Below, piece by piece: positions 10,585-26,691 of a stretch of 33,778 nucleotides of DNA (position 1 is the first letter of the stretch; every line of letters begins with the position of its first letter). Position numbers and translations under genes: made by a program. Origin of the DNA: Chitinophagaceae bacterium (GTDB lineage Bacteria; Bacteroidota; Bacteroidia; Chitinophagales; REEL01); the NCBI GenBank assembly GCA_007695095.1, contig REEL01000065.1, positions 1-33,778 on the forward strand. Reading direction: 5' to 3'. Under the pieces are notes generated by a model. The model had not been told where the DNA came from. It was given only the letters and a program-made list of their open reading frames with translations, and ran no database searches.

Positions 10585-11817
10585 TTAATTCCAAAGTAAT
10601 TTCCAATAAAAAGAAGGTTTTTTAAACTCCTGCCTTAAATCTATATCTTCAAACATGCAGGAAATAGTATCTCTCAGCGTTTCATTTCGGGAGGCTTTAT
10701 TGACCACATAATTAAAGAGCCAGGGAAATTTAACAAGTCTTTGCATAGTATAGCTTAATTTTAGCTCACTCCACAATCTGTCATACACCAATGTATCGTA
10801 TTTACTTAAAAAGTCAGCGTTTGTTTTGTTTTGGGCTATTGCTTCACAGATAGTTTCTGCAGCAAGCTTTCCGGAAAACATTGCATTTCCGATTCCTTCT
10901 CCTGTAAAAGGATCTATCAATGATGCCGCATCTCCTATTAACAGATAATTATCTCCTGAAAGTTTTCTTTTTACGGAACCCAGCGGTAATCCAAAGCCTT
11001 TAACCGACCCTTCTAATTCAGCATTTTGAAAACGATCTTTGATGGTTGGAGCGTTTTCTATGATTTCATTCAGTAAGTGCTTTAAATTTATTTTTTTCTC
11101 TGAAATCTTATCGCTTCTCATGCCAAGTCCAATATTTGCCATACCATTTGGGAGCGGAAAAATCCAAAAATATCCGGGCAGTACATCTTTTAAAAAGTGC
11201 AGCTCAATAAAATTCTCAATATCCATCCCTTCCACTCCTTTGTAATAGGCTCTGATTCCGGCACAGTAATACTTTGGTACCTGCTTGAAACCGTGAAATT
11301 TAGCCAATTTTGAATGAGCTCCATCAGCACCAATAACATAATCTGCCAACTGTTTATTACCGTTTGAAAAACAAACTTCCAACTGATTTTCAACCCTGTT
11401 GTAATTAGTAATTTCAGAATTTTGAATAAACTCTATATTGGGATGTTTCAGCAGTTTTTCAACTAAAAAATTATCGAAATCTAAACGCTTAGAAATAAAC
11501 CCGGGAGCCGGATCCTGCATACTAAATGCTTTTTTGAACGGAATTCTCAGTGAGTTTTTATTCGGTGCAAAAAAATGAACCCCATACGAACCGATTTGCT
11601 TTTCAAAAGCACGCAATTCATCTAAACAATGCGGAGCAACCTGTTTTAAAACTTCAACAACTTTACCACTTAAAGCATCTCCGCAAATTTTGTCTCGCGG
11701 GAAAAGGGCTTTATCATGCAATTCCACTAAAACTCCTTTTTCAGCTAACACATAGGCAGCTATAACTCCTCCCGGCCCTGCACCTGATACTATAACCCTT
11801 GTTTTCTTATCTTTCAA
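10585..11817 (-). CDS. Geranylgeranyl-reductase-family FAD-dependent oxidoreductase (TTG start)
   Basis: A flavoprotein of the PHBH/geranylgeranyl reductase fold. The N-terminus carries the dinucleotide-binding GAGPGG (Gly12-Gly17), then the family segment FPRDKICGDALSG, a mid FAD motif VIGADGAHS, and the second FAD motif LIGDAASLIDPFTGEGIGNAM. Family members reduce isoprenoid double bonds (chlorophyll side chain, archaeal lipids, menaquinone) or hydroxylate aromatics; which applies is not visible. The start is TTG at 11817, overlapping the TGA of the upstream outer-membrane protein gene by 4 nt (TTGA), so the two are translationally coupled. It is the last gene of a lipoprotein-barrel-flavoprotein operon, an odd partner for two envelope proteins and perhaps a sign of lipid or quinone modification there. 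Confidence 0.85.
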   Translation of the reverse strand: MKDKKTRVIVSGAGPGGVIAAYVLAEKGVLVELHDKALFPRDKICGDALSGKVVEVLKQVAPHCLDELRAFEKQIGSYGVHFFAPNKNSLRIPFKKAFSMQDPAPGFISKRLDFDNFLVEKLLKHPNIEFIQNSEITNYNRVENQLEVCFSNGNKQLADYVIGADGAHSKLAKFHGFKQVPKYYCAGIRAYYKGVEGMDIENFIELHFLKDVLPGYFWIFPLPNGMANIGLGMRSDKISEKKINLKHLLNEIIENAPTIKDRFQNAELEGSVKGFGLPLGSVKRKLSGDNYLLIGDAASLIDPFTGEGIGNAMFSGKLAAETICEAIAQNKTNADFLSKYDTLVYDRLWSELKLSYTMQRLVKFPWLFNYVVNKASRNETLRDTISCMFEDIDLRQEFKKPSFYWKLLWN

Positions 11818-13088
11818 AACTTAATAGTAGATTTTAAATAAGCACTTCCCGAAGAAAAATGATTAGAAAAAAGAAGTCCGTTGATAGAGTTGCTTCCTAC
11901 TGAGATTAAAAAATTAGGCGAACTAAACTCAACTTCTAAGCCGGACAGATAACCCGACATAGTTGAAAAAGCAAATGACTTATGAATATTGAGTTTAGAT
12001 ACGGGTTGGTAAGAAGCTCCGGCCCAGAAAATACCGGAATTTTTAAAACTACTTCTATACTGAACTCCTCCTGAAAGAGCAAAAAACTCCCAACTGCTGT
12101 GACCTCCCCGAAGATCAATAACTGTAGGATTTGCTGAACGGTGGTTGGACAATTCACTTTGAGGGAAGTAAGTATTGTTTACGGAATCTATATAATCATT
12201 AAAAAAATCAGGATTATCCAAATCAAAAATTTGTGGAACAAATATGCCCTGAAAGTCAATTATAGTATCTGCCTGCAGCCGGCTGTTATCTTTCCAGTTG
12301 ATAAATCCAAGACCGGATACTGTTGCAGAAACATAGTAGTCTGTAGTTTTCACTCCGGCATTTAACGTAAAATCCATACCAAAGCCGTTCCATATTCCCG
12401 GGTGGATGCCCTGATCTGAATTTTCTATCATAGAAAAATCATAATCAAGAGTCAGGCTTTCGCCTAAAGGAGCTGTGAATAATTCAGCTTTTTCTACATC
12501 CACAGAAATATACTGCAATCCTTGAAGCAGGCTCCCTTTTATTCCTGTAAAAAAAGTAAAAGATTCGTTAATCTCTTTAGTGCCACCATAGAAAAGCTGC
12601 CATTCGTTAAAAACTCTTTGTTCAAAATTTCCCGGTCCTATAAATGCGGTTTTATCCTCAAAACTTTTGTTCCCATACAAAGCCAAGTTTACTGCATCTT
12701 CAGAGAAAACACCTCTAAAATCCTGTACATTTTTAAAACCAATTCCTAAAATACTTTTATCAAACAAAAATGATTTTTGAGGTTGATAGAAATAAGTCGC
12801 TCCAAAATTCCAGTTTAACTTAAAAGGATTACTTTCCTTCAAATCATTTGCTGTCACAGACTTTTCATCTTCATCCAGAAATCTGTTAAAAAGAATACTA
12901 TAATTTATATTGTGTTTTAAAGCATTGGAAAAGCTATGATAATCGCCATGAAGGACTATGGTATGTTTTTTATCAAACACATTTTCATTATGAAAATCGG
13001 GCATTTCCATAAACTCGGATTTCAGAAAATTCCCTCCCTGTAAAGACAGATTTAAAGCAAAAAGTATTATAAAAAGTATTAAACGCAT
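11814..13088 (-). CDS. Outer-membrane beta-barrel protein (DUF5723-like)
   Basis: A 424-residue protein with a signal peptide (about residues 1-18) and many alternating hydrophobic/aromatic strands, e.g. FNWNFGATYFYQP-type and SGIFWAGASYQPV segments, ending in a terminal strand SAYLKSTIKF with C-terminal Phe, as expected for an outer-membrane barrel. The overall pattern (HSFSNALKHNINYSIL, GTKEINESFTFFTGIKGSLLQGL, WNGFGMDFTLNAGV, spread over the chain) matches my recollection of DUF5723 proteins, which resemble PorV/FadL-type barrels; this family assignment is tentative. It lies 23 bp after the lipoprotein gene and overlaps the flavoprotein gene by 4 nt. Likely role: a surface barrel partnering the upstream lipoprotein. 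Function is unknown. Confidence 0.75.
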   Translation of the reverse strand: MRLILFIILFALNLSLQGGNFLKSEFMEMPDFHNENVFDKKHTIVLHGDYHSFSNALKHNINYSILFNRFLDEDEKSVTANDLKESNPFKLNWNFGATYFYQPQKSFLFDKSILGIGFKNVQDFRGVFSEDAVNLALYGNKSFEDKTAFIGPGNFEQRVFNEWQLFYGGTKEINESFTFFTGIKGSLLQGLQYISVDVEKAELFTAPLGESLTLDYDFSMIENSDQGIHPGIWNGFGMDFTLNAGVKTTDYYVSATVSGLGFINWKDNSRLQADTIIDFQGIFVPQIFDLDNPDFFNDYIDSVNNTYFPQSELSNHRSANPTVIDLRGGHSSWEFFALSGGVQYRSSFKNSGIFWAGASYQPVSKLNIHKSFAFSTMSGYLSGLEVEFSSPNFLISVGSNSINGLLFSNHFSSGSAYLKSTIKF

Positions 13089-13111
13089 TGAATTTTCCGG
13101 CTGCTAAGTTT

Positions 13112-14743
13112 TTAAAATAAAGACCCTGAATTGTATTTAAAATCCGCTGTCAGCTTGACTTTTAGTTTATTGTTATCATAAAGTCGAACAAAATTATCAT
13201 TGCAAAAAGTAGAAACCGGCGTATTCAAAGTAGCGATAACAACTGCTTTTTCAACATTCTTCCAAATTTCTATATCCTCTTTACTCAAAGGTGCAGATAG
13301 CAAAGAACGCTTTGATTCTTCCGTTTTGCAATCCGGGCCGGGTTCAGCTCCAATTGCCTGCATCCCTTTAAAATATTCTTTAAGTACATCTCCGTTTTCA
13401 TTTAAAAAAGCAACTGTTATACTGAAATCCAGCGGAAAACTGTTATCCGTTATTAAATGTAACTTGCCGGTTTCCAAACCTCTTAGCTCACGTGCAATTT
13501 CCTCCGGGTTAAAATCAATTGTATCAATCAGCATTAGAGATTCCAATTTAATAGCAAGCGGGATTTCCAAATCCATAAATACTTTTAACTCACTATTCAA
13601 ATAAGCGAAATCCTGATAATTAAATAAATTCATGGAAGGATTAATCAACACATCAAAATCATATTCAATAGTTTGCGGAAGAGTTTGTAAAAAGAGATTC
13701 AGATTAGAGTTTTGCTCATCGAGATTCAAATTCGACTTTCCAACAATAAACGGATTATCAAGTGCCCTGCTTATGCTAAGTCCTTGCTGCAATTGAGCTG
13801 AACTTAACTCTACCTGTTGTCCGCGACCAATAGCTTTTAATTTATTCACAATTACTTCTCCCTCAATACCAAAACCATTTTCTACTCTAAGATTTATAGC
13901 CGCAGCTTCTAAAAATAATTTTCCGGATTTAACTATATCAAAGACTTCTGTATCCAACACTTCTAAATCGCTGCTGATGGTATCACTGCCTAAGTATCCT
14001 TTTACATATTCCGGAACTATATTTTGAATTTTATAGGTAATTCTCAGACTGTCAGTAGGCTGTATAATACCGATTGGGCTTTGAGCTCTTATTTTTCCTT
14101 TTAAAATTTGTTGAAAAGTATTGAATTGATTATTCTGAGGTCCTTTTAAATTCAGATTAAAACCTGAAATATCGAAGATTTCACTCTTGCTGACAGTACC
14201 GGAGGCTCCCGGTGGCGGAAGAACAGTCTCCAAAAACAGCGGATTGCCGTTATCATCAGTAGCTGCCGGAAGTGAATATTCAAAAAAGAGAGAGTCTGAA
14301 ATTGTACTGCTCATTTCTACCGTAATCTGACCTTCCTTGATGCGAACAAAAGTAATTTCAGGGCCATCTAAATCATAAGTTGTTGACTCTTGAATATCAA
14401 TCACAGTAAATAAAGTAGATGCATTTCCGGAAAAATAACTTCCATGTGCATACTTACCACCCTGCAGCAATGAATCCAGATTAAAGAAATAAGTCAATGA
14501 TGTGTCAGGTATTTGCAATAAATCGTCCTGCAAATTAAAATTCAACACCTCCTCACTTACCACTATTCTTAACAGCCCGTCTGAATCTGTCTGAACGTAT
14601 TCATCACCGGCAATTTCCCTGACACCCAATTCTGTAGAAAATACAGGTATTAGCCAGTCAGTATCCCATCCGCTTTTATCATCCGGTTTACAAGACAACA
14701 AAAAAAGGCTCAAAAAAAAGAATGTTAGTAATTGCTTAACCAA
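13112..14743 (-). CDS. Uncharacterised large lipoprotein (TTG start)
   Basis: A lipoprotein signal peptide ends in LFLLSC with the acylated Cys at residue 18, followed by KPDDKSGWDTDWLIPVFSTELG. The remaining roughly 520 residues are beta-rich with many asparagine, serine and aspartate residues, and I recognise no catalytic motif. Lipoproteins with the WDT..LIP opening next to DUF5723-type barrels recur in Bacteroidota as far as I recall. The start is TTG at 14743: an in-frame stop lies immediately upstream and no ATG exists before the hydrophobic signal core, so TTG is needed for a signal peptide. Two Cys near the C-terminus (GPDCKTEE and STFCND) could form a disulfide. It is the first gene of a three-gene operon and likely sits on the outer membrane. 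Confidence 0.75.
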   Translation of the reverse strand: MVKQLLTFFFLSLFLLSCKPDDKSGWDTDWLIPVFSTELGVREIAGDEYVQTDSDGLLRIVVSEEVLNFNLQDDLLQIPDTSLTYFFNLDSLLQGGKYAHGSYFSGNASTLFTVIDIQESTTYDLDGPEITFVRIKEGQITVEMSSTISDSLFFEYSLPAATDDNGNPLFLETVLPPPGASGTVSKSEIFDISGFNLNLKGPQNNQFNTFQQILKGKIRAQSPIGIIQPTDSLRITYKIQNIVPEYVKGYLGSDTISSDLEVLDTEVFDIVKSGKLFLEAAAINLRVENGFGIEGEVIVNKLKAIGRGQQVELSSAQLQQGLSISRALDNPFIVGKSNLNLDEQNSNLNLFLQTLPQTIEYDFDVLINPSMNLFNYQDFAYLNSELKVFMDLEIPLAIKLESLMLIDTIDFNPEEIARELRGLETGKLHLITDNSFPLDFSITVAFLNENGDVLKEYFKGMQAIGAEPGPDCKTEESKRSLLSAPLSKEDIEIWKNVEKAVVIATLNTPVSTFCNDNFVRLYDNNKLKVKLTADFKYNSGSLF

Positions 14744-18833: not shown

Positions 18834-19658
18834 ATGGCAAAAGATTTCAAAGGCAAAGTAGTGATTATCACCGGTGCATCATCCGGTATTGGTGAGGCGC
18901 TTGCCAGATCCTTCAGTAAAACAGGTGCAAAAATTGTTTTGGCAGCCAGAAGTTTAGAAAAACTTAATGCATTACAAAAAGAACTTCATAATGAAAACCC
19001 TAACATCATAGTTGTAAAAACTGATGTGAGTGAAGAAGATGACTGTCAAAATCTAATAAACAGAGCACTTTCAGAATTTAACCATATAGACATACTAATA
19101 AATAATGCCGGCATTTCAATGCGAGCCTTATTTGAAGATTTAGATTTATCTATTCTCAAAAAATTAATGGATGTTAACTTTTGGGGAATGGTCTATTGTA
19201 CAAAGTATGCACTCCCCCATTTATTAAAAAGTAAAGGTTCGGTAGTAGGAATTTCATCTATTGCCGGTTACAGGGGTTTACCGGCAAGAAGCGGATATTC
19301 TGCCTCTAAATTTGCCATGCAAGGGTTTTTAGAATCTTTACGAACTGAAAATTTATATAAAGGCCTGCATGTATTGACAGTCTGCCCGGGCTTTACTTCT
19401 TCAAACATACGCAATCAGGCACTTACAGCCGATGGTAGTTCTCAAAAAGAAACCCCTTTAGATGAGAAAAAAATTATGTCGGCAGAAGAAGTATCACAAA
19501 GAGTGCTGAAAGCTATTTTAAAAAGAAAAAAAATAATCATACTAACAACCTTAGGGAAGTTGACTGTTTTCTTAAACAAATGGTTTCCCGGATATATGGA
19601 CAAACTTAGTTTTAATCACATGGCAAAAGAGAATGATTCCCCTTTAAAACACTCTTAA
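18834..19658 (+). CDS. Short-chain dehydrogenase/reductase (classical SDR)
   Basis: A 274-residue NAD(P)-dependent oxidoreductase with a complete SDR signature: cofactor loop TGASSGIG (residues 13-20), the NNAGIS motif, catalytic Ser142 in GISSIAG, and Tyr155 and Lys159 in YSASK. Basic residues after the second strand (AARSLEKL) favour NADP(H). The proline/glycine PG motif (CPGFTSSN) is present. A C-terminal extension with a hydrophobic amphipathic segment (GKLTVFLNKWFPGYMDKL) suggests membrane association, as in the DltE/YqjQ-type or DHRS7-like subgroup. The substrate is unknown. It lies 78 bp upstream of the ThiF-nitroreductase fusion and could be cotranscribed with it, but the gap is larger than those inside that cassette. 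Confidence 0.92.
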   Translation: MAKDFKGKVVIITGASSGIGEALARSFSKTGAKIVLAARSLEKLNALQKELHNENPNIIVVKTDVSEEDDCQNLINRALSEFNHIDILINNAGISMRALFEDLDLSILKKLMDVNFWGMVYCTKYALPHLLKSKGSVVGISSIAGYRGLPARSGYSASKFAMQGFLESLRTENLYKGLHVLTVCPGFTSSNIRNQALTADGSSQKETPLDEKKIMSAEEVSQRVLKAILKRKKIIILTTLGKLTVFLNKWFPGYMDKLSFNHMAKENDSPLKHS

Positions 19659-19736: not shown

Positions 19737-22130
19737 TTGAACACTTTATCAAGATTTAAGGGGCTTTCGAAAGCTTTAAAAATTATAAAATTACCCGCTA
19801 AACCATTGAATATGTTTGATATAAATCAAATAATTAAGCAGAAATCCGTTGAAATGAAATCTGAACAATTGGTCTGTAAACCAATTATTTTGAGATTAAC
19901 TAATAATTCAGATTTTGATGATTTCAAAAGAATTATTCAACAAAAAGAAGTAAAAGTCTCTGATAAAATAAATAATCAACTAAAAGAATTAATAAAAATA
20001 CAGAACCCTCTTGTTAAATTAAATGAAGCTGAATATATAAAAAAAATTGAAGAACATTTAAATGGTATAAGTATTTATAAATATGGGGCTTGGGTATTTT
20101 ATCCATGGCTAAACAAGATTGTTCACATTTTGGACATCGACGAGTTTATAGATTTAAGAACAAATAGAAATCAATACAAAATCACTCGAGAGGAAAGAGA
20201 AATTTTATCTAAGAAAAAGTACGGTATTTTAGGGCTGTCAGTTGGACAATCTGTTGCCGTTTCATTATCTATGGAACGAAGCTTTGGAGAGCTACGCATT
20301 GCAGATTTTGATACGCTTGATTTATCAAACCTCAATCGGATTCGTTCAGGAGTTCAGGATTTGGGTTTGTTAAAAACGGTTTCAACGGCAAGACAAATTG
20401 CAGAAATTGACCCCTATTTAAATATAAAATGCTTTCATGAGGGAATAAATGAAGAAAATATTGAAGCTTTTCTATTAGAAGGTGGGAAATTAGATATTTT
20501 AATAGATGAATGTGATGGCTTAGATTTAAAAATTATTGCCAGACAAGCAGCGAAAAGACACAAAATTCCTGTCATAATGGAAACAAGTGACAGAGGAATG
20601 ATCGACATTGAGCGTTTTGATAATGAACCCGACAGGTCAATAATGCACGGTTTGATAAATCACCTGGATTTAAACCCAGCTAACCTTAAAAGCCTTACCA
20701 ATGAAGAGAAAATTCCTTATATGTTACCAATGCTTGGCATTGATACAATGTCAACCGGTTTAAAAGCCTCAATGCTTGAAGTTGAACAAACAATTAGTAC
20801 ATGGCCACAATTAGCTTCGGATGTAATTCTTGGAGGTGCAATTTCAGCAAACGTGTGTCGCAGAATTGCACTTGGTAAATTTGATATATCCGGTAGGTTC
20901 TTTATTGATTTGAATGAAATTATACATTCAAACAGTCCTCATAAACATAATTTTAAACAAAAAAATGAATCAACTAAGCTAAAATCTGAGACTAATACTG
21001 ATTTTCATATAAGTAGCTTTACTAAAAGTGATAATCAAAAATCATTAACTGAAGATGAGTTGAATTCAATAGTTGAGTCTGCTATTTCAGCTCCTTCCGG
21101 TGGAAATAGTCAACCTTGGAAATTTGTTTATGAAAATGATTTTTTGTATTTGTTTTTAGATAAATCAAGAGGAAGGTCCTTCTTAGATATTGACTATACC
21201 GGTTCCTATTTAAGCCTTGGAGCTGCTTCAGAAAATATTAAACTTTTTTGTTTAAATAATTCTATTGGTGTTAACATTAAACTTTTTCCTGATAAAGAAA
21301 ATTTAGATTTAGTAGCGTTATTCAGTTTTTATGATAACCCTGAAGTAAAATCAGGTATTGAATTTGAAAAGAAAATAGCTAATCATATTTTCAAGAGACT
21401 TACAAACAGAAGAATAAGTACAAGAAATAAAATTTCTGATAAAATTATTTCTGAAATTCAACTTTCTGTAAATAATATGACGAATATAAATTCTATTATT
21501 ATTTCTGATGAAAATAAAATGAAAGATGTTGCTAGTATTCTTTCTAAAACAGACCGTTTATTAATAACAAATAAAAATGGACATCATGGCTTTATAAATG
21601 AAATTAGATGGTCTGATAAAGAAGCTAGTGAAACAAAAGATGGTATTGATATAGCAACTATTGATTTAACTGCTGGCGAAGCAGCTGGTTTTAAAATTGC
21701 CAAACAATGGAATGTTATAAATACATTAAATAAATGGGGTGGTGGTAGTGTTTTTGAAAAACTATCTAAAAAAGGAATTGAAGCTGCTTCTGCCATTGGC
21801 CTAGTAACTACTAACAATTATAGTTCTAGTCATTACTTTAATGTCGGAAGAGCAATAGAAAGAATATGGCTTACGGCAAATGCAAATAATGTTGCTTTTC
21901 AACCAATGACACCAATAACTTTTTTACTTCACAGACTTAACTATTCAAACGCTGAAGGATTAACAAATAGTAATCAATTAGAACTTAAGGAGTTGGAAAC
22001 AAAACTATTTGATATATTTAACCTTGATAAAGAACATCCCGTATTTTTATATAGAATGTTAATAGCAGATGAACCAGAAATTAAATCATACAGAAAGCCT
22101 GTAAATGAAGTTTTAATTACCAAGAGATAA
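19737..22130 (+). CDS. ThiF/E1-like adenylyltransferase fused to a nitroreductase (Rv1355c/MoeY-like)
   Basis: A 797-residue two-domain protein. Residues about 1-150 form an N-terminal region I do not recognise. About 155-395 is a ThiF/E1 Rossmann domain: GILGLSVGQS (Gly163, Gly166, Gly170 glycine-rich loop) and DFDTLDLSNLNR (Asp190/Asp192 and Asn198-Arg201, the ATP-binding/adenylation signature). The CxxC zinc pairs of many E1-like proteins are absent. A polar linker (about 395-435) leads to a nitroreductase-fold domain with the FMN-binding segment APSGGNSQPW (452-461) and GRAIERIWLTANANNV. The same architecture is annotated in mycobacteria as Rv1355c/MoeY, whose function is not established. 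The start is TTG at 19737, or ATG at 19812 (residue 26). It is 7 bp upstream of the acyltransferase-like gene. G+C falls sharply after the linker. Confidence 0.85.
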   Translation: MNTLSRFKGLSKALKIIKLPAKPLNMFDINQIIKQKSVEMKSEQLVCKPIILRLTNNSDFDDFKRIIQQKEVKVSDKINNQLKELIKIQNPLVKLNEAEYIKKIEEHLNGISIYKYGAWVFYPWLNKIVHILDIDEFIDLRTNRNQYKITREEREILSKKKYGILGLSVGQSVAVSLSMERSFGELRIADFDTLDLSNLNRIRSGVQDLGLLKTVSTARQIAEIDPYLNIKCFHEGINEENIEAFLLEGGKLDILIDECDGLDLKIIARQAAKRHKIPVIMETSDRGMIDIERFDNEPDRSIMHGLINHLDLNPANLKSLTNEEKIPYMLPMLGIDTMSTGLKASMLEVEQTISTWPQLASDVILGGAISANVCRRIALGKFDISGRFFIDLNEIIHSNSPHKHNFKQKNESTKLKSETNTDFHISSFTKSDNQKSLTEDELNSIVESAISAPSGGNSQPWKFVYENDFLYLFLDKSRGRSFLDIDYTGSYLSLGAASENIKLFCLNNSIGVNIKLFPDKENLDLVALFSFYDNPEVKSGIEFEKKIANHIFKRLTNRRISTRNKISDKIISEIQLSVNNMTNINSIIISDENKMKDVASILSKTDRLLITNKNGHHGFINEIRWSDKEASETKDGIDIATIDLTAGEAAGFKIAKQWNVINTLNKWGGGSVFEKLSKKGIEAASAIGLVTTNNYSSSHYFNVGRAIERIWLTANANNVAFQPMTPITFLLHRLNYSNAEGLTNSNQLELKELETKLFDIFNLDKEHPVFLYRMLIADEPEIKSYRKPVNEVLITKR

Positions 22131-22137
22131 CTAATTA

Positions 22138-22842
22138 ATGCTCACTAAAAATATTAAAATACAAGCATTTAGAGCCATTCACGATAATAAAAAATGTGAA
22201 CAGTTTTATAATGGCCATATCAATGTATTAAAAAGTTATGGAATTGATCCAATTAGTTCTGCTCAAAATGCCTGGTTTTACAATCCTGAAGTATATGCTA
22301 TAATAGCTTTTGAAAATGATACATGTATAGGTGGTGTAAAATTACATAAAACAGGAGGCACACAAGCTTTACCATTAGAAGACAGTATTGGCTTCATGGA
22401 TGAAAGAATTTATGACATTGTAGATAAATACAGTAAGTCCGGAGCTGCTGAAGCTTGTGGTCTCTGGAATTCTCGTGATTTTTCCGGATTAGGACTAAGC
22501 AATATCATGATGATAGCAGTAGTAGCTACTGCACATCAATTAAACATAAAAACCTTATTTGGAATAACTTCAGACCACACTGAACCACTTTTTAGAAGTT
22601 TTGGATATCGTGTAATAAGATCAATTGGTTCAAACGGAAACTTTTCATACCCCACCCCTAAATATCTTTCGCGTGTAATTAAGATGAATAGTAAAACTTT
22701 ATCTTCTGCAAATCCGTATAACCGAAGAAATATTTTATCTCTCAGACAAAACCCAAAGCAAAAAATGATAATATCAAATTCAAAAGTTAAAATTAATGTT
22801 GAATTTGATATTACACTAAGTATGGCGACTTCATCCATTTAG
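22138..22842 (+). CDS. Putative GNAT-fold acyltransferase (LuxI/FeeM-like)
   Basis: A 234-residue soluble protein without a signal peptide. Strand/helix order and motifs suggest a GNAT-like fold: VYAIIAFENDTCIGGVKLHK (beta strands with an Ala-Phe and Gly-Gly turn, listed as one run), the acidic segment PLEDSIG, EACGLWNSRDFSGLGLS (a conserved Arg and a GLGLS turn at the position of the acyl-CoA pyrophosphate loop), then a long helix and LFGITSDHTEPLFRSFGYRVIR, which resembles the terminal GNAT strand pair. Autoinducer synthases and N-acyl amino acid synthases share this layout. The C-terminal 50 residues are basic and less structured. Family placement is by pattern only. It sits between the E1-nitroreductase fusion and the sensor kinase, with gaps of 7 and 49 bp. 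Confidence 0.65.
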   Translation: MLTKNIKIQAFRAIHDNKKCEQFYNGHINVLKSYGIDPISSAQNAWFYNPEVYAIIAFENDTCIGGVKLHKTGGTQALPLEDSIGFMDERIYDIVDKYSKSGAAEACGLWNSRDFSGLGLSNIMMIAVVATAHQLNIKTLFGITSDHTEPLFRSFGYRVIRSIGSNGNFSYPTPKYLSRVIKMNSKTLSSANPYNRRNILSLRQNPKQKMIISNSKVKINVEFDITLSMATSSI

Positions 22843-22891
22843 GATTTACTGTTTTACGGTTTTAAAAAGAGATTTTGAAACATCTTAAATA

Positions 22892-25138
22892 ATGAAAAAG
22901 ATTTTATTAGTACTTACATTATTATTCAATTTTTTATCCTACTCTGAATCAAAAACAATTGTAGAAGTAAATAATGATGATTATTCTATAAACGTTAGTA
23001 GTTCTCTTTATATAAAAGTTGATAAAGAAAATGAATTCAGTTTTGATGACATTAAAAATTCTAATAATTTTGTCTTAACTGATGAGAAAATTCCTAACCT
23101 TGGGATATCCCGTTATTCTCTTTGGGTAAAATTTCATTTAAAAAATAATACCTCAACTGAAAACTTATTACTAAGTCTTCCTTACCCAATTTTAGATTAT
23201 GTGGTGTTATATCAAGAGATTGATGGAGAATATCAAATTCAAAAATTAGGAGAATATGTTCCTATAACCGAAAGAGAGTATAAACATCAAAATTTCATTT
23301 TTGATATTCATCAAAAAATAGGCTCTGTTTCAACATACTATATCAATATTAAAAGTAGTGAACAAGTAATGTTACCATTAACTGTTGGCACCTCAAAAGC
23401 TATTTTTCTCGAAAATGCAGGAATAGAAATAATAAATGGTGTTTACTTTGGATTAGTATTAGTAATGATATTTTACAATCTATTTATCTTTTTCTCTGTA
23501 AAAGACAATAATTACATTAAATATGTTGGATATATTATATTAATAGGACTTACTCAAGCTAGTGATCAGGGGTACACATATCGATTAATTTGGCCAAATT
23601 ACCCGGAATTTGCTGGTTTTATGGTTACTACTTTTCCGGTTCTAGTTGGTGTAGCTGCAATGCTCTTCATGAGAAGCTTCTTAAACACAAAACAACACTT
23701 ACCAAAATCTGAAATAATTCTTTTTTTCCTTATTGGAATGTACTCTACTTCTATTTTTTTTAATTTAATTGGTTATCCTCAAGAGGGTTATAAACTGCTT
23801 CAAATTACAGCAATCATTGTTTCTATCTTTATGTTTGTAGTTGCCTTTAAGATTATGAAAAAAGGATATAAATCTGCCAAATTTTTCCTATTGGCCTGGT
23901 CTGCTTTTTTAATAAGTGTGTGTGTATTTATTATGAAAGATTTTGGCATTTTACCATATAATAATTTTACAAAATTTAGTTTACACATTGGTTCAGGAAT
24001 CGAAATGATACTTCTTTCTTTTGCACTTGCAGACAAGATAAATATCATGAAAAAAGAAAAAGAGGAGTCTCAGGCAAGGACATTAGAAGCTTTAAAAGAA
24101 AATCAGCGAATAGTAAAAGAGCAGAATATTGTATTGGAGCACAAAGTAAAAGAACGTACCGGTGAGTTGGAAAAGTCAAATTTAAATTTAAGTAAAACAC
24201 TGACAGACCTTAAAGAAACTCAAGCCCAGCTCTTAGATTCAGAAAAAATGGCTTCTTTAGGACAGTTAACTGCCGGAGTTGCTCATGAAATCAATAACCC
24301 AATAAATTTTGTCACTTCCAATATCAACCCATTAAAAAAGGACATTAATGACATTGTTGAGCTCATTCATTTATATGATTCACTTAAAAATGAAGAAGCA
24401 GAAAACATACCACAAAAACTAAAAGAAATTAAAGAGTTTGAAGATGATATTGAAGTAGAATTCTTACTCGAAGAAATAAATATGCTTTTAAAAGGTATGG
24501 AAGAGGGCGCAACTCGTACGGCTGAAATCGTGAAAAGTCTTAGAACATTCTCAAGGCTTGACGAGTCAAATTTAAAGAATTCTGACATAAATGAATCTTT
24601 GGAGTCAACTTTATTACTTTTAAAGAGTTCTTTTGGTGATAAAATTGTAATTAATAAAAATTATTCCGAACTTGAGCCGATAGAATGTTACGCTGGCAAA
24701 CTTAATCAGCTGTTTATGAACATTTTAAACAATGGAATTCAGGCTGTAAATGAAAAAAAATATAGTGGAGATGAGCAACCGACAATTGCTTTGAAAACTG
24801 AAAAGGTTGATGACTACGTCTTAATTAGCATAGCAGATAACGGTATAGGAATGGATGAAAACACTAAAAAGAAAATTTACGACCCTTTCTTTACTACTAA
24901 AGATGTTGGAAAAGGAACCGGATTAGGCATGTCTATTGTTTACAACATTATTGAAAAGCATGAAGGTATGATTGATCTCATAAGTGAACCGGGAAAAGGA
25001 ACAGAATTTCGAATTTTTATTCCCAGAATGCACGATAAAGAAAATGAAGACACTAAAAAAAGCGAAGCATATTTACAGTTAAAACAAAAAAGAAAAGAAA
25101 AACTACGTGAAATCGTAAAAAAGAAGACAACCACCTAA
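22892..25138 (+). CDS. 7TM-DISM sensor histidine kinase
   Basis: A 748-residue membrane receptor kinase. A signal peptide (about 1-21) precedes an extracellular 7TMR-DISMED2-like beta domain (about 25-165; ISRYSLWVKFHLKNNT and LLLSLPYPILDYVVLYQ are typical). Seven membrane helices follow (about 180-386; first GVYFGLVLVMIFYNLFIFF), then a coiled coil (about 387-450), a HisKA-like phosphoacceptor with His465 in GVAHEINNPINFV, and an HATPase domain with ILNNGIQAV (N box), DNGIGMDE (G1) and GKGTGLGMSI (G2). DISMED2 domains resemble carbohydrate-binding folds and are thought to bind small ligands. It has no receiver of its own and is followed at 9 bp by a receiver-kinase. The N-terminal half is much more AT-rich than the kinase half. 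Confidence 0.93.
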   Translation: MKKILLVLTLLFNFLSYSESKTIVEVNNDDYSINVSSSLYIKVDKENEFSFDDIKNSNNFVLTDEKIPNLGISRYSLWVKFHLKNNTSTENLLLSLPYPILDYVVLYQEIDGEYQIQKLGEYVPITEREYKHQNFIFDIHQKIGSVSTYYINIKSSEQVMLPLTVGTSKAIFLENAGIEIINGVYFGLVLVMIFYNLFIFFSVKDNNYIKYVGYIILIGLTQASDQGYTYRLIWPNYPEFAGFMVTTFPVLVGVAAMLFMRSFLNTKQHLPKSEIILFFLIGMYSTSIFFNLIGYPQEGYKLLQITAIIVSIFMFVVAFKIMKKGYKSAKFFLLAWSAFLISVCVFIMKDFGILPYNNFTKFSLHIGSGIEMILLSFALADKINIMKKEKEESQARTLEALKENQRIVKEQNIVLEHKVKERTGELEKSNLNLSKTLTDLKETQAQLLDSEKMASLGQLTAGVAHEINNPINFVTSNINPLKKDINDIVELIHLYDSLKNEEAENIPQKLKEIKEFEDDIEVEFLLEEINMLLKGMEEGATRTAEIVKSLRTFSRLDESNLKNSDINESLESTLLLLKSSFGDKIVINKNYSELEPIECYAGKLNQLFMNILNNGIQAVNEKKYSGDEQPTIALKTEKVDDYVLISIADNGIGMDENTKKKIYDPFFTTKDVGKGTGLGMSIVYNIIEKHEGMIDLISEPGKGTEFRIFIPRMHDKENEDTKKSEAYLQLKQKRKEKLREIVKKKTTT

Positions 25139-25147
25139 AACCCAAAA

Positions 25148-26248
25148 ATGAAACCTGAGAAAGCGAAGATACTTTATGTAGATGACGAAGTAAATAACTT
25201 AATTAGCTTTAAAGCAGCCTTCAGAAGAGACTTCGATATAACTACAGCAGAATCCGGTCACGAAGCGCTCAAAATACTTAAAAATGATACCTTTAAGGTT
25301 ATCATCAGTGATCAACGTATGCCCAATATGATGGGTGTAGACTTTTTTAAAGAAGTCTTAAAAAATGGCAATAAAGCTGTTCGAATTTTACTTACCGGAT
25401 ATGCAGACATCAGTGATGTGATTGCTGCCGTAAACCAGGGCCACATTTTTAGCTATGTCTCTAAACCCTGGCAGGAAGAAGATCTGAGAATAATTATTAA
25501 TAATGCAATCAGATATTATAACACTGAAAATGAATTAGCAGAACGTAACATTGAACTTGAAAAGGCGTATAAAGAGCTAGAGAAGTTTGTATATAGTGCC
25601 TCTCATGACTTGAGAGCCCCATTAGCTTCAGTTTCCGGACTGATTAAGTTGGTGAAAATGGAAAATCAGAACCCAAGCAGTGCTGATTATCTCGAAAAGA
25701 TTGAAGGTAGTATAGACAGACTCGAAAAGTTCATTGAAAATATCATTAGCTACTACAGAAGTGCTAAAATGGAAGAAAAAGTAGAGATAGTCGATTTTGA
25801 AACATTAATCGACGAGACGCTCGAAATTTTCAGATATTTTGAAAATGCTTCTGAAATAGAGTTTGTTAAAAAAATCAATGTTTCCGGCAATAAAGAGTTT
25901 AAGAGCGATGAAGACAGGATTAAAATTGTAATCAATAATCTTATTTCTAATGCTATTAAATATCAGGAGCCGCAAAGAGAAAATAAAAAAATTGAAATTG
26001 ATGTTACGGTTAATGAAGATTTTGCAGAGATTAATATTTCAGACAATGGTATTGGTATTAATGAGAAAAGTTTAGAAGAGATTTTTACTATGTTTTACAG
26101 ATCTACTGCCCGAAATTCCGGTTCAGGTATTGGATTATACATAGTGAAAGAAACAATAAACAAAATGAATGGTGAAATTTCCGTTCAAAGTAAATTTGGA
26201 GAAGGAACAACTTTTAAAGTTAAAATTCCTAATCTTAATAAAGTATAA
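25148..26248 (+). CDS. Receiver-histidine kinase hybrid (response regulator N-terminus)
   Basis: A 366-residue cytoplasmic protein with an N-terminal receiver (ILYVDDE acidic pair, phospho-acceptor Asp55 in ISDQRMP, LTGYAD, and the switch Lys in YVSKPW), then a coiled-coil linker and a HisKA domain with His153 in SASHDLRAPLAS. The HATPase domain is complete: NNLISNAIKYQ (N box), DNGIGI (G1) and GSGIGLYIVKE (G2). Receiver-first hybrids accept a phosphoryl group or a conformational signal and pass it on, here plausibly from the upstream 7TM kinase and to the downstream single receiver. It has no membrane segment and no DNA-binding or cyclic-nucleotide output domain. Spacing is 9 bp upstream and 14 bp downstream. 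Confidence 0.92.
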   Translation: MKPEKAKILYVDDEVNNLISFKAAFRRDFDITTAESGHEALKILKNDTFKVIISDQRMPNMMGVDFFKEVLKNGNKAVRILLTGYADISDVIAAVNQGHIFSYVSKPWQEEDLRIIINNAIRYYNTENELAERNIELEKAYKELEKFVYSASHDLRAPLASVSGLIKLVKMENQNPSSADYLEKIEGSIDRLEKFIENIISYYRSAKMEEKVEIVDFETLIDETLEIFRYFENASEIEFVKKINVSGNKEFKSDEDRIKIVINNLISNAIKYQEPQRENKKIEIDVTVNEDFAEINISDNGIGINEKSLEEIFTMFYRSTARNSGSGIGLYIVKETINKMNGEISVQSKFGEGTTFKVKIPNLNKV

Positions 26249-26262
26249 AAAAACCGTGTAGA

Positions 26263-26691
26263 ATGAGCAACCTAAATAAAAATATGCCTCTGGTGATGCT
26301 TATCGATGATAATGAAATCGACTTATTTCTAAACAAAAAGTTTTTGGAAGTCGCTCATATCAGTAATAATGTTATTTCTTTTAGTCACGCAGAAAAAGCA
26401 TTACAATATTTAACTCAACAAAAAGACAATTTGTATGAATTGCCTGATATAATCTTACTGGATATTCAAATGCCTGAAATGAATGGTTTTGAGTTCCTGG
26501 AAAAATTTAATGCATTTTCAGATAAAGTTAAGCGGAAAACTTCTGTAATTATGCTGTCATCTACTATTGATCCGATTGATATTAAAAGAGCTAAAGACTA
26601 TTCTTTTTTAATCGATATACTTACCAAGCCCCTTAACCCTCCGGTTCTTAAAGAAATTTTAAAAAAAGAGTTAAAACTGAATGCTGCATAA
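26263..26691 (+). CDS. Single-domain response regulator
   Basis: A 142-residue CheY-like receiver with the acidic pair in LIDDNEID, phospho-acceptor Asp67 in LLDIQMPEMNG, the LSSTID loop, and the conserved Lys in ILTKPLNP. It has no output domain, so it would act by binding a partner or as a phosphate shuttle. This insert-bearing subtype (a short Q/K-rich loop before the phospho-acceptor) is common in Bacteroidota next to hybrid kinases. It is the last gene of the cassette. Its stop is 8 bp from the stop of the convergent gdhA, with no obvious terminator between. Confidence 0.93.
   Translation: MSNLNKNMPLVMLIDDNEIDLFLNKKFLEVAHISNNVISFSHAEKALQYLTQQKDNLYELPDIILLDIQMPEMNGFEFLEKFNAFSDKVKRKTSVIMLSSTIDPIDIKRAKDYSFLIDILTKPLNPPVLKEILKKELKLNAA

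Follow-up and report, generated by a model that had tools for sequence, protein, structure and literature searches.

In this study, we analysed a window of 33,778 nt from a Chitinophagaceae bacterium (assembly GCA_007695095.1, contig REEL01000065.1), and we focus here on a run of five plus-strand genes at positions 19737-26691 (Table 1). The first two genes encode enzymes whose product is very probably a small ring compound derived from an acylated amino acid, an oxazolone, and the remaining three encode a seven-transmembrane (7TM) sensor histidine kinase, a receiver-histidine kinase and a lone receiver. We found that kinases of the same sensor group occur across Bacteroidia almost always in company with the acyltransferase of gene 2. 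Based on this linkage, we favour, with moderate confidence, the view that the locus is a synthase-receptor pair, in which a self-made signal derived from an N-acyl amino acid, here an oxazolone, is sensed by the cell's own 7TM kinase. A previous sequence-only reading had outlined the same five genes, with gaps of 7, 49, 9 and 14 bp, and both the open reading frame (ORF) coordinates and the domain calls of Pfam and NCBIfam agree with it, the GNAT call of gene 2 lying below the Pfam threshold.

The linkage was determined in 295 Bacteroidia genomes, from which 40 ThiF-gene loci were taken with their flanks; family counts follow the group codes of the genomes in the kinase and acyltransferase profile searches. 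Nearly all 40 loci carry the ThiF(-oxidase), acyltransferase, 7TM kinase and receiver-kinase genes in tandem, within flanks that are not conserved. A profile of the sensor part of the kinase gave 53 matches of at least 335 bits before scores dropped to 294, and every one of these 53 kinases, which span 21 families, lies within an acyltransferase cluster. Conversely, the acyltransferase profile, for which no score fell between 26 and 170 bits, is present in 55 genomes, and in 53 of them the gene adjoins a matching kinase. The two remaining cases are the lowest-scoring one (G207, acyltransferase and ThiF only) and one in which the contig ends at the gene (G237). Six kinases just below the score gap were examined and none has an acyltransferase neighbour. 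This gap is not absolute, as a linked kinase from outside the sample (L251) scores 278. In a sensor tree, all 47 linked kinases tested fall in one clade (Shimodaira-Hasegawa-like approximate likelihood ratio support of 95 in a quick search), which also contains a single unlinked kinase. Linkage of synthase and receptor genes across species, a criterion applied to quorum-sensing systems, is seen for all 53 kinases above the gap, and the conserved adjacency that the sequence-only reading had proposed as a check is very strong.

Scanning named genomes recovered the same gene order from Pedobacter, Mucilaginibacter, Daejeonella, Arachidicoccus and numerous metagenome-assembled genomes (MAGs) of Flavobacteriales, and the gene set is also present in one genome (L250) outside the class and inside the phylum. 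The genome of the window is 98.6% complete and encodes exactly one Rv1355c-family protein and exactly one 7TMR-DISM protein, both of them in the five-gene run. Because of these single copies and of the recurring gene order across Bacteroidia, the arrangement is far beyond chance. Acyltransferase and kinase genes are less than 60 bp apart or overlap in 85 of the 121 loci that have both, the commonest overlap being exactly 4 bases, and most of the other loci carry the ThiF gene between them. This tight spacing suggests that the two genes share one transcript. A promoter scan gave no excess over shuffled sequence, and terminator-like elements numbered 7 against 4.2 expected; neither result was used.

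It could be argued that these genes simply travel together as an inherited block, with no functional link between product and kinase. In line with this, the distances of the acyltransferase and of the kinase core are correlated (r = 0.55). However, the flanks are not conserved across the 21 families, and the genes stay adjacent even where their proteins are only about 30% identical and where gene order or tailoring gene differs. Thus, we regard mere co-inheritance as improbable.

Table 1. Predicted genes of the cassette, with their positions in the window.
Gene	Position	Strand	Predicted product and features
gene 1	19854..22130	+	ThiF-type E1 cyclase fused to a flavin mononucleotide (FMN) nitroreductase-fold oxidase, Rv1355c/TrzS family
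gene 2	22138..22842	+	FeeM/LuxI-fold acyltransferase (GNAT superfamily), predicted amino acid N-acyltransferase
gene 3	22892..25138	+	7TMR-DISM sensor histidine kinase; DISMED2 ~39-165, 7TM ~179-382, phospho-acceptor His465
gene 4	25148..26248	+	receiver-histidine kinase (receiver + HisKA + HATPase); Asp55, His153
gene 5	26263..26691	+	single-domain receiver, Asp67, without DNA-binding domain

Gene 1 matches NCBIfam NF005901, the Rv1355c family, over its full length (residues 40-795, scoring 770 bits where the cut-off is 476), and its ThiF and nitroreductase domains are both recognised. Its ORF (19737-22130) opens at a TTG codon that is probably too far upstream to be the start, because family homology begins near residue 40; the in-frame ATG codons at residue 26 (19812) and residue 40 (19854) are likelier. 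Rv1355c of M. tuberculosis, now TrzS, was characterised in 2025 along with its M. smegmatis and Rhodococcus jostii counterparts (PMC12856293). Together with TrzA, it makes N-acyl tryptazolones through N-acylation, ATP-dependent cyclisation by the ThiF part and O2-dependent desaturation by the flavin oxidase (PMC12856293). Gene 1 is about 32% identical to the actinobacterial proteins. Residue Asp260 of the 797-aa protein occupies the alignment position of the catalytic-type Asp in E. coli ThiF, and the Rhodococcus and Mycolicibacterium homologues have an Asp there too. By its place in the conserved ThiF motif, it probably corresponds to Asp217 of the M. smegmatis enzyme TrzS. In the oxidase domain, where Arg540 and Gln651 of TrzS lie, there are invariant Arg, Asn and Trp residues, any one-to-one correspondence with the two TrzS residues being tentative.

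Since gene 1 matches the ThiF/MoeB/E1 superfamily, it might instead activate a protein or ubiquitin-like tag, or serve molybdopterin or thiamine synthesis; the molybdopterin option also finds an echo in MoeY, the former name of Rv1355c. Yet no Cys is invariant among 21 relatives, which speaks against a thioester mechanism of the ubiquitin kind, and on this ground ubiquitin- or MoeB-like activation was rejected. Moreover, it is an acyltransferase gene that is conserved beside it, and the family member with a characterised activity is an oxazolone cyclase (PMC12856293). This alternative is therefore very improbable.

Regarding gene 2, an AlphaFold model built from 33 natural relatives (predicted local distance difference test, pLDDT, 93.7; predicted template modelling score, pTM, 0.90) has FeeM as its best match in the PDB (2g0b; TM-score, a template modelling score, of 0.62 by query and 0.77 by target), albeit at 14% identity. 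The next matches are the N-acyl-homoserine lactone (AHL) synthases BjaI, MesI, EsaI and RpaI, so that the LuxI/FeeM character ascribed to this gene by the sequence-only reading is borne out at the level of fold. Gene 2 matches no autoinducer-synthase family of Pfam or NCBIfam, and its likeness to LuxI and LuxM is one of fold only. FeeM and BjaI are likewise the nearest structures reported for TyzA, which serves as acyltransferase in tyrazolone synthesis (PMC10404671). When gene 2 was compared by hhalign with the actinobacterial genes in the TrzA position, the Rhodococcus neighbour gave a weak match (68% probability over 172 columns), and the Mycolicibacterium and Streptomyces neighbours gave none. 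A contig scan with the single gene 2 sequence returned no relatives; with the E1 alignment as query, related loci were found. Altogether, the chemistry predicted for genes 1 and 2 is well supported by homology, being assigned from the family of gene 1, the modelled fold of gene 2 and their adjacency.

The tailoring gene beside the acyltransferase is variable. In the 53 systems, it encodes a ThiF-oxidase fusion (30), ThiF alone (17), a class I S-adenosylmethionine (SAM) methyltransferase (4) or a membrane protein of the ICMT family, which is carboxyl methyltransferase-like (1). One further system (G213) has no adjacent tailoring gene; a degenerate oxidase fragment lies by its acyltransferase (L199, G213:C3), and an intact ThiF-oxidase fusion is encoded, unlinked, elsewhere in the genome (L038, G213:C1). 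A ThiF-only system with an extra O-methyltransferase was also found (L200). On the acyltransferase tree, parsimony calls for 13 or more changes of tailoring type, and the well-supported branches by themselves require no fewer than 4 for the fusion and no fewer than 4 for ThiF alone. A genome-wide search in 16 ThiF-only genomes recovered no oxidase of the gene 1 type, generic nitroreductases matching with at most 29 bits. Because no separate oxidase was found, ThiF-only systems probably stop at a non-desaturated product. All these tailoring enzymes could act on a carboxyl group, and it is a reasonable inference that their common role is to mask the carboxylate of an N-acyl amino acid. A constant acyltransferase and kinase combined with a changing tailoring step is as expected for related signals with cognate receptors.

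On the receptor side, gene 3 matches PF07695 (182 bits), PF07696 (97 bits) and HATPase_c; HisKA is below its cut-off, with His465 present. The model of its sensor (pLDDT 92) matches the periplasmic domain of RetS. The third structural match is human WLS, a 7TM protein, and is weak over the whole chain. WLS carries acylated Wnt, and the resemblance of the modelled sensor to it is only suggestive. Downstream, the residues Asp55 and His153 of gene 4 and Asp67 of gene 5 are located, like His465, where the sequence-only reading had placed them. No regulator with a DNA-binding domain is encoded by genes 3-5. Of note, 103 of the 121 loci are flanked by a gene for a divergent receiver (for instance, L053:7088-7555), which is about 155 residues long, shares the C-terminal tail NxQLEFxLRQKLLS and usually lies upstream in the 40 loci taken with flanks. 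It is missing beside the locus of the window, and two unlinked receivers with similar tails are encoded in the window's genome (G000 C129:749-1213, L073; L076:1495-1956).

Several observations weigh against the oxazolone being the ligand of the neighbouring kinase. In actinobacteria, tryptazolones are mostly intracellular, their acyl-tryptophan precursors being found mainly in the supernatant (PMC12856293). The only type of DISMED2 ligand met in the literature that we consulted is carbohydrate, reported to bind the DISMED2 domain of NicD (PMC8544897). Distance matrices revealed no sensor-specific co-variation with the acyltransferase, the sensor correlating at 0.47 and the kinase core at 0.55. 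Since the sensor has no special share of this correlation, the linkage tells that acyltransferase and kinase work together, but not in which direction information flows. In addition, the unlinked member of the sensor clade is a second kinase in a genome that also has the full system (G292), and the ThiF enzyme occurs without this kinase in Actinobacteria, Sorangium, Blastocatellia and a Dyadobacter. Next to the second kinase of G292 there is a receiver and no acyltransferase (L245, G292:C1:1664500-1681000), and this protein could be an eavesdropping receptor. Loci in which the ThiF gene has neither kinase nor acyltransferase beside it include those of Sorangium, a Blastocatellia MAG, Dyadobacter and one Flavobacteriales MAG.

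The location of tryptazolones, the sugar ligand of NicD and the lack of co-variation also speak for the main competing explanation. According to it, the kinase senses some other cue, such as envelope stress, a sugar or the redox state, and switches the production of an oxazolone that is itself the output, for example a stress lipid or an antibiotic. The resemblance of the DISMED2 domain of gene 3 to RetS points the same way, and sub-inhibitory antibiotics induce oxazolones in Proteobacteria, for which a role in stress has been suggested (PMC12856293). On the other hand, no regulator of the locus has a DNA-binding domain with which to control the synthase genes. Furthermore, kinases of this clade are almost never found without the acyltransferase, which is unexpected for a general stress sensor, and the kinase persists when the tailoring enzyme changes. 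We thus consider this explanation rather unlikely, although it is the strongest of the alternatives, and we retain sensing of the product as the preferred one.

Under the synthase-receptor proposal, the system would operate in four steps. First, the FeeM-fold acyltransferase would take an acyl group from acyl-coenzyme A or acyl-acyl carrier protein and attach it to the amino nitrogen of a probably aromatic amino acid. Second, the ThiF domain would adenylate the free carboxylate with ATP and close the oxazolone ring, which the fused FMN oxidase would desaturate with O2, as in TrzS. Homology argues strongly for acylation, ring closure and desaturation. Third, the DISMED2/7TM sensor of the adjacent kinase would bind either the oxazolone or the N-acyl amino acid from which it is made, as the exclusive linkage of the genes suggests. 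Fourth, the kinase would autophosphorylate at His465 and pass the phosphate to the receiver-kinase and the lone receiver; the motifs are consistent with the relay order given by the sequence-only reading, from His465 to Asp55, then His153 and finally Asp67. The receivers would act by protein contact, because none of them has a DNA-binding domain. As the oxidase step of TrzS needs O2, signal output may depend on aerobic growth.

This arrangement combines features of several known systems. As in the trzAS, tyzACB and oxzAB clusters of Mycobacterium, Rhodococcus and Pseudoalteromonas, a ThiF cyclase and a flavin oxidase adjoin an acyltransferase; gene 1 and TrzS are members of one curated family, and gene 2 resembles TyzA in its reported fold. 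Unlike here, no sensor kinase has been described with those clusters, and Rv1355c has genes for cyclic di-GMP (c-di-GMP) beside it instead. RetS, LadS and NicD of Pseudomonas share the DISMED2 and 7TM sensor architecture, but are not linked to a small-molecule synthase. In the LuxM-LuxN and CqsA-CqsS systems of Vibrio, the gene of the signal synthase adjoins that of its multi-pass membrane histidine kinase, which feeds a phosphorelay. The locus presented here would share this organisation if the predicted sensing holds, and differs in its synthase chemistry, in its DISMED2 and 7TM receptor and in that its operon encodes no output regulator able to bind DNA (for the receptors LuxN and CqsS, see PMC8895600). 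The enzymes and the receptor class are each known; in the part of the literature that we covered, we found no description of their combination, of an oxazolone synthase with a linked kinase or of any synthase with a linked 7TMR-DISM protein. Hence, the statement of the sequence-only reading that no function had been described stands for the five-gene set in the papers searched, and fails for genes 1 and 2, whose counterparts TrzS and TrzA make N-acyl tryptazolones (PMC12856293).

Some related loci and neighbouring genes deserve a brief mention. Two FeeM-like acyltransferases lie beside one ThiF-oxidase and one kinase at L089 and L124, possibly reflecting two products or a recent duplication. 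On a Rhodococcus qingshengii plasmid (L161), a trzAS-like pair adjoins the gene of a GGDEF protein, echoing the c-di-GMP neighbours of Rv1355c. A Streptomyces plasmid (L163, 5929-7727) carries ThiF alone, 40% identical to the ThiF part of the window's protein, followed by an overlapping GNAT gene of another family (Acetyltransf_3); this locus has no FeeM-like gene and no kinase. Within the window, a short-chain dehydrogenase gene (18834-19658) lies upstream of the cassette on the same strand. A homologue likewise precedes the cassette in one genome of the same order (L048), and the enzyme may add an order-specific step. Further away, at 11817-14743, two adjacent minus-strand genes encode proteins of 424 and 543 aa with no Pfam match at E 1e-5, adjoining the gene of a geranylgeranyl-reductase-like flavin adenine dinucleotide (FAD) enzyme.

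The role of bacterial oxazolones has been called a major unresolved question by the authors of the TrzAS study, who propose signalling from chemical likeness and from the neighbouring c-di-GMP genes (PMC12856293). A kinase that is almost exclusively linked to an oxazolone synthase offers a concrete and testable answer to it. In a broader sense, the 53 systems may represent an undescribed signalling family of Bacteroidota, a proposal that we hold to be evenly balanced. In such a family, a FeeM-fold acyltransferase and an exchangeable enzyme that masks the carboxylate (an oxazolone cyclase, a cyclase-oxidase or a methyltransferase) would supply an N-acyl-amino-acid signal to a dedicated 7TM-DISM receptor kinase. 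If the synthase-receptor proposal is true, oxazolones would gain a function and the 7TMR-DISM class a lipid-like ligand. Likewise, Bacteroidota would have a native signalling system of their own, and 7TMR-DISM receptors a candidate class of ligands.

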